From Spirochaetia bacterium (GTDB lineage: Bacteria > Spirochaetota > Spirochaetia > CAKZLE01): 64,000 bases of DNA. Positions 19,650-26,131 of the stretch are shown here, piece by piece (positions within the stretch are counted from its first letter, which is position 1; each line of letters begins with the position of its first letter). Under the pieces are notes generated by a model. The model was given only the letters and a program-made list of their open reading frames with translations, was not told the origin of the DNA and did no database searches. A program made the translations under genes and the position numbers. The stretch is taken from contig JAIPFY010000007.1 in NCBI GenBank assembly GCA_021736385.1, positions 1-64,000 of the forward strand, read 5' to 3'.

Positions 19650-21773
19650 CTAGAGTCTGAAAAGCATGTCTTCATATGACGGGAAGGGCCAGTAGGCCTT
19701 GTCCGTCATCTTCTCGAGCATATCACCATGGGTCCTCAGTGCTGCCATGGCTGGTATCACGGTGTTACGGTACGCTTTCGCCTGCTTGAGCGTGTCATCT
19801 TCGATCGCCAGCGCTGCTGCCATCTCATCTTCCAGTGTGTCTGCAGCGGTCAGGGTGCTGTTCACGTGAATCGATAGCTTCTCAGCAAGTGCTTTCTGGG
19901 CAGCAGGATCCAATCCCAGAGCAGTCTGTGATTTCACAGAATCAAGTACTTCCTGCAGATATCTGGTGGATGCCGGTACGATCATGCGTTTTGCCATCTC
20001 TGCCATGATCCCTGCTTCGATGTTGATCTGTTTGCTGTAGGTCTCCAGATAGATCTCTTCTCGTGACTCGATCTCAGCCTTAGAGAAGACTCCGTGTTTC
20101 TCAAAGATTTTCACGTACTCGGGGTCGGTCATCTTCGCAAGGGCCGACACGGTACTCGTGAGGTTGGGAAGGCCTCGGGAGAGGGCTTCTGCCACCCATT
20201 CCTGTGCATAGCCGTTACCGTTGAACACGATCCTCCGGTGTCTGCTGTAGAACTCCTTGATGATCGCTGCCGTCTCTTTCATGACATTCTCAGATCGTTC
20301 AAGCCTATCCGCTACCTCAGAGAGGATCTCAGCGACTACGGTGTTGATCATGGTGTTCGGGCCGGCAAGTGACTGCAGGGAGCCGACCATCCTGAACTCG
20401 AACTTGTTACCGGTGAAGGCGAACGGGGAGGTCCTGTTCCGGTCGGTGGTGTCCATGGGGAATCGCGGTATGGTCGTCACTCCGACTTCAACGAGTTTTC
20501 CGTCACGTTTCTTCAGTTCACGCTCATCAGCGATACAGTCAAGGATCTCAGTGAGCTGATCCCCGAGAAACATGGAGATGATCGCAGGAGGTGCCTCGTT
20601 CGCACCCAGTCGGTGGTCGTTCCCGGCATTCGCTGCTGAGAGTCTGAGCAGCGGTGCATACATATCGACTGCCTTGATCACCGAGGTGAGAAAGAGCAGG
20701 AACTGTGCATTATCTTCAGGGCTGTCGCCGGGCTGCAGCAGGTTGTGTCCATCATCGGTCCCGATCGACCAGTTGTTATGCTTTCCTGAGCCGTTGACCC
20801 CTGCAAAGGGTTTCTCATGCAGCAGGGCGACCAGACCATGCCGATTCGCCACATTCTTGATGGTCTCCATCAGCAGCTGATTGGTATCGGTCGATCGGTT
20901 GGCTGTATCATAGATCGTAGCGATCTCGAACTGGTTGGGGGCTACCTCATTGTGCTGGGTCTTTGCAGAGATGCCGAGTCTCCACAGGTCGTAGTTCAGT
21001 TCTTTCATGAAGACTGCGACCCGTTCTTTGATCGCGCCGAAGTAGTGGTCATCCATCTCCTGACCTTTCGCACTCATCGTGCCGAAGACCGTTCTTCCGG
21101 TCAGACGAAGGTCAGGTCTCTGATCATAGAACTCTTCATCGACCAGGAAGTACTCCTGTTCCGGTCCCACGTTGGTGATGATGCGGCTCGTCGTGGTATT
21201 CCCGATGGCTTTGAGTACCCTGAGGGCTTGTCGGTTGATCGCTTCCATCGATCTGAGCAGAGGGACCTTCTTATCCAGAGCCTCCCCGGTGTAGGAGATG
21301 AAGGCAGTGGGGATCGTCAGGGTCTTCACTCCCAGATTCTCTTTGATCACTGCTGGACTGGTGGTGTCCCATGCGGTATAGCCGCGTGCTTCGAAGGTAG
21401 CTCTCAGGCCTCCGTTCGGAAAGGATGAGGCATCCGGCTCTCCCTGGATCAGTTCTTTGCCGGAGAACTCGAGCAGCACGGTCCCGTCATAACAGGGATT
21501 GATGAACGAGTCATGCTTCTCTGCCGTCAGTCCTGTGAGCGGCTGGAACCAGTGGGTATAATGGGTCGCTCCCTTCTCGAGTGCCCAGTCCTTCATCGCA
21601 TTCGCGACGACTTCTGCTACCTCCGGTGAGAGACTTCTCTCCCCGTTCTGGACGGATTTGAGTTCCTTATAGACCTTGGCCGGCAGCCGTTCCTGCATGA
21701 TCACATCGCTGAAACAGTTCTCTCCATATACTTCAGTCAATGATTTTTTTGTGAAATCTATACACTCTGACAT
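19650..21773 (-). CDS. glnN: Type III (GlnN) glutamine synthetase
   Basis: [21 protein letters not shown]...[14 protein letters not shown]...[27 protein letters not shown]...[20 protein letters not shown]...[22 protein letters not shown]. Confidence 0.96.
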
Positions 21774-21811: not shown

Positions 21812-21827
21812 AGCAATATGCGTGCCA
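21812..21827 (-). promoter_or_regulatory. Sigma54 (-24/-12) promoter of glnN
   Basis: Minus strand TGGCACG-CATA-TTGCT, matches TGGCACG-N4-TTGCW with GG-N10-GC spacing. Confidence 0.85.
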
Positions 21828-21903
21828 AATAATATAACTTCTTATTAGATATAAAGTAGCATATGATCAGCAGCTCTTTGCTGCTGTTTTGCAGGTTTGA
21901 TAA

Positions 21904-21918
21904 CCTACAAAAATGTAG
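21904..21918. promoter_or_regulatory. Candidate enhancer/operator, CTACA-N4-TGTAG palindrome (distal glnN site 1)
   Basis: cCTACAAAAATGTAG; recurs in intergenic DNA of the nitrogen block. Confidence 0.6.
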
Positions 21919-21935
21919 TCAAATAGGATCGATAG

Positions 21936-21950
21936 CTACATTTTTGTAGG
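21936..21950. promoter_or_regulatory. Candidate enhancer/operator, CTACA-N4-TGTAG palindrome (distal glnN site 2)
   Basis: CTACATTTTTGTAGg, centre 31 bp from the previous copy. Confidence 0.6.
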
Positions 21951-21978
21951 AATCTATTCTAGTGTCCGGGTACCTCAT

Positions 21979-22320
21979 CTAGCCTATGGCTTTGGCTCCC
22001 GTGTCTTTGTTGCGTATTCTGATACATTCTTCGATCGGTACGATGAAGATCTTCCCGTCCCCTATGCTGTTCGTACCCGCTCCGTTGATGATCGCTTCGG
22101 TGGTAGAGCTCACGAAGGAGTCGTTCACAGCGATCTCGATACGAAGTTTCTTCAGCAGGTTCACTTCGATATCGACTCCACGGTAGGTCTCGGTATACCC
22201 CATCTGCTGTCCGCATCCGAGGGCGTTGGTGATGGAGATCTTGTAGATCTCGCGTTTGTATAGCTCCTGTTTCACTGAATTCAGTTTATCGGGCTGTATA
22301 TAGGCAATGATCAGTTTCAT
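21979..22320 (-). CDS. PII signal-transduction protein (GlnB/GlnK family)
   Basis: [65 protein letters not shown]...[26 protein letters not shown]. Confidence 0.9.
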
Positions 22321-22335
22321 AGTGGTAATCCTCCA

Positions 22336-23655
22336 TTACATCGTGGTGAAGATCTGAAATCCGCTGTATGATTCGGTCCCGTGTTCACTCAGGTCCAAGC
22401 CGACGAGTTCTTCTTTCTCTGATACCCGCAGTCCATGGGCTTTGTTGATGATGAAGAACAGCAGTCCTGCAGACAGAGCGACCCAGATGAACACCGACAG
22501 GGCTCCCAGAGCCTGTATCCCCAGCTGTGTGAACCCGCCTCCGTAGAAGAGGCCTCTGACATCATCAGTGGCGCCGAACAGTCCGACTGCCAGCGTTCCC
22601 CAGAGTCCGCAGACCCCGTGGACTGAGATGGCTCCGACCGGATCGTCGATATGCAGCACCTTGTCGATGAACTCTACCGAATAGACGACGATGATCCCTG
22701 CGATCAATCCTATGAGCACAGCTCCGAAGGGGGTGACCACTGCTGTCGGCGCGGTGATCCCGACCAGTCCTGCAAGTGCACCGTTGAGGGACATACTGAC
22801 ATCCGGTTTACCGAAGTGGATCCAGGAGATCAGCATGGCTGCGATCGCTCCCGCAGAGGCTCCGAGGGTCGTCGTGACCGCGACGGTCGCCATGGTCATG
22901 TCAGTCCCGCTGAGCGTGGACCCGGCATTGAATCCGTACCAGCCGAACCAGAGGATGAACACCCCAAGGCTTGCCAGGGGCAGGTTGTGTCCCAGGATGG
23001 CTTTTGATGTGGTCTTCCCGTTGACTTTGACGAACTTACCGATCCTCGGTCCGAGGAAGAGAGCTCCCATGAGTGCTGCCCATCCACCGACTGAGTGCAC
23101 GACCGTCGATCCTGCGAAGTCGTGGAAGCCCATCTCTGCAAGCCATCCGCCGCCCCAGATCCAGTGTCCTGAGATCGGATAGATGATTCCGGAGATGAAC
23201 ACGCTGTAGATGAGGTAGGCGGAGAACTTCGTCCGTTCTGCCATGGCTCCTGATACGATGGTCGCTGCGGTCGCAGCAAAGACGACCTGGAACATCCAGT
23301 CCCTGAAGAGGGTAGCATCGGCTCCTTTGATGAAGAACTGTGAGAATCCGAAGAACCCGTTGGAACTGCCGTACATCAGTGCCCAGCCTAACGCCCAATA
23401 GATCAGAGCTCCTGCACAGAAGTCCATGAGATTCTTCATGATGATGTTCCCTGCATTCTTTGCCCGGGTAAGTCCCATCTCGACCATGGCGAATCCAGCC
23501 TGCATGAAGAATACCAGAGCTGCTGCCAGCAGCAGCCAGATCATGTCAAGTGCTTCCTGGTGAAGCGCGACCGTCTCAGCCAGTTCGTCTGCGAACAGCG
23601 TACCGCAGCTGATCATCAGCAGCACTGAAACAAGTAGTGCGATTTTGTACCTCAT
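22336..23655 (-). CDS. amtB: Ammonium transporter
   Basis: FFMQAGFAMVEMGLTRAKNAGNIIMKNLMDFCAGALIYWALG...VVHSVGGWAALMGALFLGPRIGKF...HNLPLASLGVFILWFGWYGFNAGST. Confidence 0.96.
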   Translation of the reverse strand: MRYKIALLVSVLLMISCGTLFADELAETVALHQEALDMIWLLLAAALVFFMQAGFAMVEMGLTRAKNAGNIIMKNLMDFCAGALIYWALGWALMYGSSNGFFGFSQFFIKGADATLFRDWMFQVVFAATAATIVSGAMAERTKFSAYLIYSVFISGIIYPISGHWIWGGGWLAEMGFHDFAGSTVVHSVGGWAALMGALFLGPRIGKFVKVNGKTTSKAILGHNLPLASLGVFILWFGWYGFNAGSTLSGTDMTMATVAVTTTLGASAGAIAAMLISWIHFGKPDVSMSLNGALAGLVGITAPTAVVTPFGAVLIGLIAGIIVVYSVEFIDKVLHIDDPVGAISVHGVCGLWGTLAVGLFGATDDVRGLFYGGGFTQLGIQALGALSVFIWVALSAGLLFFIINKAHGLRVSEKEELVGLDLSEHGTESYSGFQIFTTM

Positions 23656-23694
23656 ATACCTCTCCTGTGTGTTATGTGTGTTGCAGATCTCTTA

Positions 23695-23710
23695 AGCAGG
23701 AAGCATGCCA
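23695..23710 (-). promoter_or_regulatory. Sigma54 (-24/-12) promoter of amtB-PII
   Basis: Minus strand TGGCATG-CTTC-CTGCT with GG-N10-GC spacing, upstream of the amtB start. Confidence 0.75.
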
Positions 23711-23815
23711 ATCTGACAAAACTGTATGGAGAGATCTTGTAAAAGATATTGAGGAAAAGAGATATGTGTCAGTCTTTCTGGGGGTGGGTCAGTCGAGCAG
23801 CAGAAGTAATATAAC

Positions 23816-23845
23816 CATATACCTACGAAAACGTAGGTATATGGT
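23816..23845. promoter_or_regulatory. Extended palindrome containing CTACG-N4-CGTAG, candidate enhancer site for amtB
   Basis: CCATATACCTACG-AAAA-CGTAGGTATATGG, 13-bp arms, about 110 bp upstream of the amtB sigma54 promoter; may also act as a transcript hairpin 3' of the regulator. Confidence 0.6.
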
Positions 23846-23868
23846 TGTTATGATACATGTATGTAGGA

Positions 23869-25404
23869 TTACTGTGGTTTGTACCGGTCTGAATCGAGTC
23901 CGTACTTCTCGATGCGCAGACCCATGATGCGTTCGGTGATCCCGAGATTACGTGCGGCTTTGGCCCGGTTCCCCCGTGCATGTTTGAGAGCATCCGCGAT
24001 GAGCTCCCGTTCAAGCTCTTCTACCGCATGACGGAGGGTGGATGCGAACTGCGTATTGGAGGATTCTGCCGACTGCAGGCTGGGAGGGAGGCTGTAGGCG
24101 TGGATCACGTCATCCTTGCTCAGCAGTACCCCGCGTTCTATGCAGTTCTCCAGTTCACGGACATTACCGGGCCAGTGATACATCATCAGCAGATCGATGG
24201 CTGAACTGGTGATCCGCTTGACCTTGCGGTGGTTCTTGCGGTTGTATTTATCGATGAAGTGATCGCACAGGAGCATGATATCTGATTTGCGGTCTCTCAG
24301 CGGCGGTATATGGATGGGGAAGACATTCAGCCGGTAGTAGAGATCTTCCCTGAAGGTCCCGTTCTCGATCTCCTGTTCGAGATTCCGGTTGGTAGCGGCG
24401 ATGATACGGACGTTGATGGAGATGGTCTTAACCCCGCCGACGCGTTCGAACTCCTGTTCCTGGATGGCTCTGAGCAGTTTTACCTGCATCTGGGCAGAGA
24501 GCTCTCCGATCTCATCAAGAAAGAGCGTACCGGTGTCTGCGAGCTCGAAACGGCCCTTCCTCTGGACATGGGCACCGGTGAACGCCCCCTTCTCATGGCC
24601 GAAGAGTTCGCTCTCGATGATGCTCTCAGGAAGCGCGGCGCAGTTCACCTTGACAAAGGGCCGGCCGGCTCTGAGGCTGCTATAGTGGATCTCATGCGCT
24701 ACGAGCTCCTTTCCGGTGCCGCTCTCTCCCCTGATGAGTACGGTGGCATCACTGGCACTCACCTGTGAGATCAGATCATAGACTTCCTGAATGGATTGAG
24801 CCTTCCCGATGAAGTTGGCCGGCTGGTAGCGTTCCTTCAATTCCTGCTTGAGCCGGTCATTCTCGGCGATCAGGCGCTCTTTCTCCTCTCTGAGCTCCTG
24901 TCGTATCTGTACCGCTCGGGCGATCATCGAGGCGATGACCGAGAGCAGCTGGAAATACTGTTCGAGTTCATCGTCTGTGAACTTCGCACAGGAGATGTTC
25001 AGGGTCCCGATGGTCTCGTTACCGCTCTTGATCGGGACACAGATGAACGAGACACGGGTATTGGCCTGGATATGGCGGGTCTCAGCTCCGGTCTTGTTGA
25101 TGTAGACATCACTTTGAGAGATATCGGGGATGATCACCGGCTGCCCGGTCTTCACCACCTGTCCGGTTATTCCCTCTCCGATCCGGTAGCGTCCTTTCTT
25201 CTTCTGGATCTCAGTCAGACCGTAGGCAGATTCGATGAGGATCTCACCGGTCTCACGGTTCACCAGGGTGATCGCTCCGCGTATGACCGGAGTATGTTCT
25301 GAGAGTGAGTGGAGGATAGGACTGAGGATCTTCTTCAGGTCTTCAGTCTCATCAAGGATCTTACTGATCTCAAAGAGGACCAGGAGTTCTGTTGGTTCTT
25401 TCAT
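23869..25404 (-). CDS. NifA-like sigma54-dependent activator (GAF-AAA+-Fis HTH)
   Basis: GAF region, then [19 protein letters not shown]...[38 protein letters not shown] (intact GAFTGA), C-terminal Fis-like [32 protein letters not shown]. Confidence 0.94.
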
Positions 25405-25412
25405 GTGTGTAT

Positions 25413-25428
25413 CCTACAAAAATGTAGG
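25413..25428. promoter_or_regulatory. CTACA-N4-TGTAG palindrome upstream of the NifA-like gene
   Basis: CCTACAAAAATGTAGG, 8 bp upstream of the ATG; its arm includes the AGGA Shine-Dalgarno-like sequence on the minus strand. Confidence 0.6.
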
Positions 25429-25435
25429 GATGTGT

Positions 25436-25945
25436 TCAAGAGGGAGTTTCTGCTTCGATCTGTTCGAAGATACCCTTCTTTCTGTTCTTTCTGACACGGT
25501 CCCACGGCAGGGTCCTGCCGTTCATGCTGATATAGACGCCGTGTGCAAGGGACTGGACACTGCTTACCGCGGTACCGAGGTTGAAGAAGGCGTCGGAATC
25601 AGCGACCGTATAGGGGACCATCGCGCCGGTGAGGATGATCGTCTTATCGAGATCGGCTTTCCCGAGTACGCGGGCGGTGATCTCCATGGTGTCGGTCCCA
25701 TGGATGATGATGATCTGACTGCACTCGGATGCCCTGCAGGCTGCGAGGATCTCAGCCCGGTCTGCATCATCCATCAGCAGGCTGTCTTTGAGGGCCATAT
25801 GCTTGATGCTGTAGCTGATGGTGCACCGAACGACCTGCATGATCCGGGAGAGGTGGGAACTCCTGAAGGTCAGCTCTCCGGTGATCTCATCATACTGCTT
25901 GTCAAAGGTCCCACCTGTAGCGATGATCAGAATCTGTTCGTCCAT
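25436..25945 (-). CDS. Short asparaginase-domain protein (N-terminal domain only)
   Basis: ILIIATGGTFDKQYDEITGEL...IIIIHGTDTMEITARVL...IILTGAMVPYTVADSDAFFNLGTAV; ~169 aa versus ~330 aa for canonical enzymes. Confidence 0.85.
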   Translation of the reverse strand: MDEQILIIATGGTFDKQYDEITGELTFRSSHLSRIMQVVRCTISYSIKHMALKDSLLMDDADRAEILAACRASECSQIIIIHGTDTMEITARVLGKADLDKTIILTGAMVPYTVADSDAFFNLGTAVSSVQSLAHGVYISMNGRTLPWDRVRKNRKKGIFEQIEAETPS

Positions 25946-26131
25946 GCTGCCCTCCTGCCGACCTGCCGGTGTGTATGTTTGCAACCATTATAGGGGGGAA
26001 AGTGGTCTGGAAGTCAACAGCCTGTTCTTCACCTGATCATACAGTTGATAGATATTGACCGATTGCCTGTTTTTTTTGTCTCCTGTTCATGATACCATGG
26101 TTCCCTGAGATCTATGATAAGGGAGCTAGTC

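Follow-up and report, generated by a model that had tools for sequence, protein, structure and literature searches.

The locus analysed here raises the question of which regulator acts on a block of nitrogen genes and through which DNA sites it does so. To our knowledge, nitrogen control has been little described in most Spirochaetia. The block lies in a window of 64,000 nucleotides (the whole stretch of DNA that was analysed) from a Spirochaetia assembly of 3.23 Mb, and its genes follow each other on the minus strand in the order asparaginase-like ORF, regulator, amtB, PII and glnN. The regulator, here termed REG1 (23869-25404), was assigned as a NifA-like sigma54 activator with a GAF-AAA+(GAFTGA)-Fis HTH architecture based on Pfam, the NCBIfam model nifA TIGR01817 and its closest solved chain, 9qq6. 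Downstream are the genes for the ammonium transporter AmtB (22336-23655; PF00909, E=2.5e-132; TIGR00836 over its cut-off), a GlnK-like PII signal protein (21979-22320; PF00543) and the type III glutamine synthetase GlnN (19650-21773; PF12437 GSIII_N, E=3.7e-76). A preliminary description had read the block in this way, and the Pfam domains (type III glutamine synthetase, P-II, ammonium transporter and GAF-sigma54_activat-HTH_8) bear this out. Directly upstream of REG1 on the same strand lies a short asparaginase-like ORF (25436-25984; PF00710), which was also found at loci L008, L121 and L125.

The intergenic DNA of the block carries four exact copies of the palindrome CTACR-N4-YGTAG. Two of them, CTACAAAAATGTAG (21905-21918, promoter-proximal) and CTACATTTTTGTAG (21936-21949, promoter-distal), form a pair before glnN with a spacing of 31 bp. 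The third, CTACGAAAACGTAG, is a variant with G/C in place of A/T in the gap between REG1 and amtB, and the fourth is located 10 bp upstream of the start codon of REG1 (25414-25427), where it overlaps the likely Shine-Dalgarno sequence. All four had been listed as intergenic in the preliminary description, with the third placed one base off at 23824-23837 instead of 23823-23836. That list had also overlooked a degenerate copy with one mismatch, ATACATGTATGTAG at 23853-23866, which lies 30 bp from the variant site and completes the amtB pair. The layout therefore comprises two site pairs and one site before REG1. As had been noticed from the sequence alone, the exact motif has no further copy in the window; across the whole genome it occurs five times, four times in the block and once on contig C79. 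Concerning further regulon members in this genome, the looser pattern TACA-N4-TGTA has 30 copies, four of them in the 3.6 kb of the block. The 26 others are mostly situated within ORFs; the two that lie close to a good -24/-12 match were discounted, as the element (L294) or the site (L313) lies inside an ORF. The regulon in this genome may therefore be limited to the amtB-PII-glnN-REG1 block.

Both site pairs are found upstream of good sigma54 -24/-12 elements, and the two sigma54 promoters that had been proposed for glnN and amtB are thus upheld. The glnN element TGGCACGCATATTGC (21813-21827, minus strand) has the best score in the window, and the palindrome centres are located 84 and 115 bp upstream of it. 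For the amtB-PII element TGGCATGCTTCCTGC (23696-23710, minus strand), identified in the same type of scan, the corresponding distances are 119 and 149 bp. The element scan revealed no sigma54 element near the site at 25414. The proposed enhancer role would hence apply to the pairs before glnN and amtB but not to the site before REG1. As this site is also only 10 bp away from the start codon, it fits autoregulation rather than an enhancer function. The simplest, though unproved, reading of a palindrome that covers the likely Shine-Dalgarno sequence is steric autorepression or a roadblock.

REG1 itself has the features of a sigma54 enhancer-binding protein, namely an AAA+ domain with GAFTGA loop, Walker motifs and an HTH; in its translation GESGTGKE and GAFTGA are intact. 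The genome encodes rpoN, and the targets possess -24/-12 promoters. REG1 scores 550.1 bits against the NifA model TIGR01817 (cut-off 528.85), matches PF00158 with 3e-74 as well as PF02954, and has NifA (9qq6) as its best solved relative. Its HTH_8 DNA-binding domain (23902-24024, minus strand; residues 461-501 according to Pfam) contains the recognition helix TERIMGLR, as opposed to TPRQ[VI]xY in NifA (GMTPRQIAYRI in the solved protein). The helix [ST]ER[IMKQV]MGLR is almost invariant within the REG1 clade. In a maximum-likelihood tree the amtB-linked spirochete REG1 proteins form a supported clade (99/89) apart from a nifH-adjoining paralog, REG2, while three proteobacterial NifA proteins form a separate, fully supported branch in this midpoint-rooted tree with few references. 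The earlier designation as NifA-like activator is consequently correct by family score, but it does not extend to nif activation here: nifH is absent from this genome (assembly 94% complete), and we therefore regard REG1 as an activator of nitrogen assimilation in this organism. Among the seven strong sigma54 activators of the genome it is the only one inside the amtB-PII-glnN block.

The arrangement recurs across the class. A search of 395 Spirochaetia genomes at a strict cut-off of E<=1e-140 identified REG1 in 152 of them, and 41 REG1 loci were used for footprinting. A site was found within 200 bp upstream of REG1 in 26 of the 41 loci; the REG1-amtB gap contains one in 23 of 27 cases and the PII-glnN gap in 11 of 14. 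Site densities in these three equivalent gaps amount to 3.5, 4.9 and 6.5 per kb. With 0.06 per kb over the other 434 kb, this corresponds to 60-100 times the background across Spirochaetia. The sites share the symmetric consensus wCCTACA-WWWW-TGTAGGw; since the search pattern dictated the TAC/GTA core, new information comes solely from the flanking bases, the fourth position and the centre. Moreover, of 24 close site pairs, 21 have a spacing of 29-31 bp, corresponding to three turns of DNA and thus to the same face of the helix. At least one site is located 28-260 bp upstream (median 129) of 65 sigma54 elements.

When all 395 genomes were scanned for two TACA-N4-TGTA copies at that spacing, 57 genomes contained such a pair, whereas the reversed pattern gave none. 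REG1 is present at E<=1e-140 in 52 of these 57 genomes (Fisher p=3e-19, uncorrected for shared ancestry), and the co-occurrence of sites and REG1 is partly due to shared ancestry. Four of the other five genomes (L187, L205, L215 and L216) have a REG1 that falls below the cut-off or is truncated at the end of a contig, bringing the total to 56 of 57; the only pair genome lacking it, G080, is an assembly of 80% completeness. Pairs away from the REG1 locus precede amtB-PII and glnN, the type I glutamine synthetase gene glnA (L195 and L204) and solute-transport genes (L193, L219 and L221). In one diazotroph (G023) a pair lies between a homocitrate-synthase-like and a modA-like gene, adjoining nifH. 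The strict pair is missing in about 100 REG1-bearing genomes, and some REG1 loci lack sites at the expected places (L122 before amtB and glnN, L138, L140 and L151). In other phyla with REG1-like proteins, some of them with the same helix, only one of 14 genomes had a pair, upstream of a ModE-like gene. Within the Spirochaetia, motif and spacing thus recur at equivalent promoters and track the REG1 gene. Two of the findings that the preliminary description had named as refuting its regulon, a motif frequent at unrelated places of the genome and a lack of conservation in relatives, are contradicted by the data.

Several other explanations of the palindromes were considered. They could be chance occurrences in AT-rich intergenic DNA, and indeed TACA-N4-TGTA is not over-represented in the genome, with 30 copies each for the pattern and its reversed control. 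Dinucleotide shuffling of the three intergenic gaps, however, gave a mean of 0.0008 exact sites and a maximum of one in 5000 shuffles compared with the four observed. Together with the class-wide conservation of the motif this rules out chance, to which we assign a next to negligible probability. It is also conceivable that the palindromes act as RNA hairpins, namely a terminator after REG1 and a hairpin at 25414 that hides the Shine-Dalgarno sequence. The variant site at 23823 is the core of a strong hairpin with a T-rich tail behind it (23813-23846; -23.1 kcal/mol and z -6.7 for a stem of 15 pairs), and the palindrome at 25414 folds as well (-8.1 kcal/mol), with its right arm over the likely Shine-Dalgarno sequence. 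Folding is, however, expected of any perfect palindrome, and RNA structure requires neither a spacing of 30-31 bp nor a position before the sigma54 promoters of many genes. In the relatives inspected, the equivalent sites showed no such extended hairpin arms, and therefore the common feature is the DNA palindrome. With the 23813-23846 stem unseen in relatives and a helical phasing of the pairs, we discarded RNA hairpins as a general explanation and consider them highly improbable; the hairpin at 23823 may nevertheless double as the REG1 terminator.

The sites might furthermore be operators of another regulator of nitrogen genes that has been inherited together with REG1. The assignment of REG1 as the binding protein is deduced from conservation, phasing and co-occurrence, and its own site has no sigma54 promoter nearby, as would be the case for an ordinary repressor. 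Against this, sigma54 elements with pairs in front of them call for an enhancer-binding protein, REG1 is encoded by the adjacent gene and is present in nearly every pair genome, and none of the other six strong activators lies in the block. A second regulator therefore appears very unlikely to us. REG1 very probably binds the palindrome, and we are confident that the palindromes are operators of the adjacent REG1 whose paired copies would drive amtB-PII and glnN from their sigma54 promoters.

The predicted system resembles several known ones. REG1 shares with NifA the GAF-AAA+-Fis architecture, the combination of upstream sites and a sigma54 promoter, the score above the TIGR01817 cut-off and the best solved match. 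It differs in its genome lacking nifH, its branching apart from proteobacterial NifA, its recognition helix and its palindrome, CCTACA-N4-TGTAGG in place of TGT-N10-ACA. The latter does not occur in the intergenic DNA of the block and is found eight times in the whole window compared with 11 expected. NtrC, also known as NR(I), activates glutamine synthetase and glnK-amtB genes via sigma54 from paired upstream sites. Nitrogen-assimilation targets, sigma54 and paired upstream sites would be common to both proteins, but REG1 has a GAF instead of a receiver domain and scores 355.7 against an ntrC cut-off of 558.6. In the promoter gaps no match to the NtrC site TGCACC-N5-GGTGCA was detected, allowing up to three mismatches. 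The distinct specificity that had been suggested from the motif alone is supported by this lack of NifA- and NtrC-type sites in the intergenic DNA and by the different recognition helix, as far as can be judged from sequence. The nearest functional parallel is in Leptospira, where the GAF-type activator EbpA was shown experimentally to act with RpoN on amtB and on growth under nitrogen limitation (review PMC12655853). Like REG1 it is a spirochete GAF-type activator, and amtB would be a target of both, but two GAF domains are described for it and it belongs to a different spirochete class. Nlh1 and Nlh2 of Aquifex aeolicus are NifA-like GAF activators as well, and the GAF domain of Nlh1 (4g3k) matches REG1 with an E of 3e-22, but they come from a different phylum. 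Sigma54 regulons have been reconstructed in Clostridiales and Desulfovibrio, and many of the activator sites described there are, like those of Klebsiella NifA, TGT/ACA repeats 10-12 bp apart (PMC6615313; PMC4641369). A 2025 survey names genes for nitrogen fixation among the sigma54 targets of Spirochaetia, with no operator motifs given in the available part of the article (PMC12316311). A text search of the accessible literature did not return the palindrome, which says little about novelty as motifs are usually presented in figures.

The REG2 paralog leads to a second palindrome. In diazotrophs that carry a REG protein and have enough upstream DNA, nifH is nearly always preceded by a sigma54 element at a distance of 52-166 bp. 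REG proteins are absent from the five Treponema-like genomes tested, all of family f24, and most nifH upstream regions of this family lack the sigma54 element. Upstream of the nifH sigma54 element, TTAC-N6-GTAA was found in nine of 24 regions (0.1 expected) and TTTAC-N6-GTAAA in six (0.0 expected), and several nifH regions have imperfect pairs 39-41 bp apart. The genomes concerned mostly carry REG2, whose helices read, for instance, LTNRMIGIR or ITYRQFGLR. G007 and G048, which possess one regulator each, instead have REG1-type sites at their nifH genes, and those of G048 form a 30-bp pair. The canonical NifA site TGT-N10-ACA was detected once among the spirochete nifH regions examined. Preliminarily, the nifH-adjoining REG2 in diazotrophs seems to go with the distinct palindrome TTTAC-N6-GTAAA; this stays a lead given the low counts and the presence of sites that match both patterns. 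A tentative reading, which we rate at somewhat below an even chance, is that two sister NifA-like activators have diverged in their codes. REG1 would use CCTACA-N4-TGTAGG at three turns for assimilation and REG2 TTTAC-N6-GTAAA at about four turns for nitrogenase, with REG1 taking over nif where REG2 is absent. Operator, helix and phasing would therefore have changed together after the duplication.

For REG1, we propose a mechanism in which its dimers would occupy the paired operators, which are 30-31 bp apart and precede the amtB-PII and glnN sigma54 promoters by roughly 60-250 bp. Under nitrogen shortage the REG1 ATPase ring would assemble and loop to the sigma54-RNA polymerase, which would open the promoter, whereas the single operator over the REG1 start region probably limits the expression of REG1 itself. 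The signal most likely enters through the GAF domain, by binding of 2-oxoglutarate, and/or through the co-expressed PII protein. Uridylylation of PII was considered; by inspection the Tyr51 position of the T-loop is retained, and no GlnD scored over the cut-off in this genome. Nitrogen status therefore probably reaches REG1 by direct sensing of 2-oxoglutarate and/or via unmodified PII, by analogy with the NifA family.

On the best reading, REG1 is a NifA-like sigma54 activator that serves general nitrogen assimilation, acts through an operator of its own and regulates its own gene. What would be new is such an activator with a predicted operator of its own across the Spirochaetia; the arrangement gives the impression of a nitrogen switch that is conserved throughout the class and has a separate DNA code. 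This defines a testable regulon consisting of activator, operator, promoters and targets, with the activator present in 152 of 395 sampled species, and would place a NifA-like protein at work outside nitrogen fixation. We suggest that an annotation as 'NifA' by TIGR01817 should not count as evidence for nitrogen fixation in spirochetes. The series of operators and recognition helices, including the nif paralog, may serve as a model for site choice by Fis-type domains, and the nitrogen regulons of uncultured spirochetes would become predictable from sequence alone.

Immediately past the stop codon of the gene for the NifA-like regulator, a 15-bp hairpin with a T-rich tail is located at window 23813-23846. 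One predicted operator of the regulator forms the centre of this hairpin, which may have a dual role as terminator and operator. On the other side, 31 bp upstream of the regulator gene and on the same strand, lies an ORF of 182 aa (window 25436-25984) that matches the asparaginase N-terminal domain only and is possibly an operon partner of the regulator. Similar asparaginase-like ORFs were also found in three other loci (L008, L121, L125). Moreover, in family f5 genomes methyl-accepting chemotaxis genes adjoin the regulator and are preceded by motif copies and a sigma54 element (L133, 3400-3514; L142, 3740-4006).

Outside the Spirochaetia, the look-alike sequences TTGCAAAAATGTGA, TTGCAAAAATGTCA and TACATAATTGTA precede the genes of regulator homologs in Lentisphaerota and Desulfobacteraceae (L016, L017, L021, L030), and they may represent an older relative of the operator. 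In 14 non-Spirochaetia genomes, the relaxed form TACA-N4-TGTA occurred as a pair only once, at about 2239 of L318 (Bacteroidota genome G402), upstream of a ModE-like gene and on a contig equal in length to the G402 contig that bears the NifA-like regulator.

At spirochete nifH promoters, sigma54 elements are present together with a variant palindrome, TTTAC-N6-GTAAA, which is paired at 39-41 bp in several cases (upstream regions L257, L259, L260, L261, L268, L271-L273). Most genomes with this variant also carry a second NifA-like paralog adjoining nifH, while single-regulator genomes have the TACA-N4-TGTA type in its place. Most Treponema-like nifH genes (family f24: L226, L228, L230, L232-L239, L241, L242, L253, L255) lack an upstream sigma54 element, and no NifA-like regulator was found in any of the five f24 genomes tested. 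Therefore, nif is probably controlled differently in these Treponema-like genomes.
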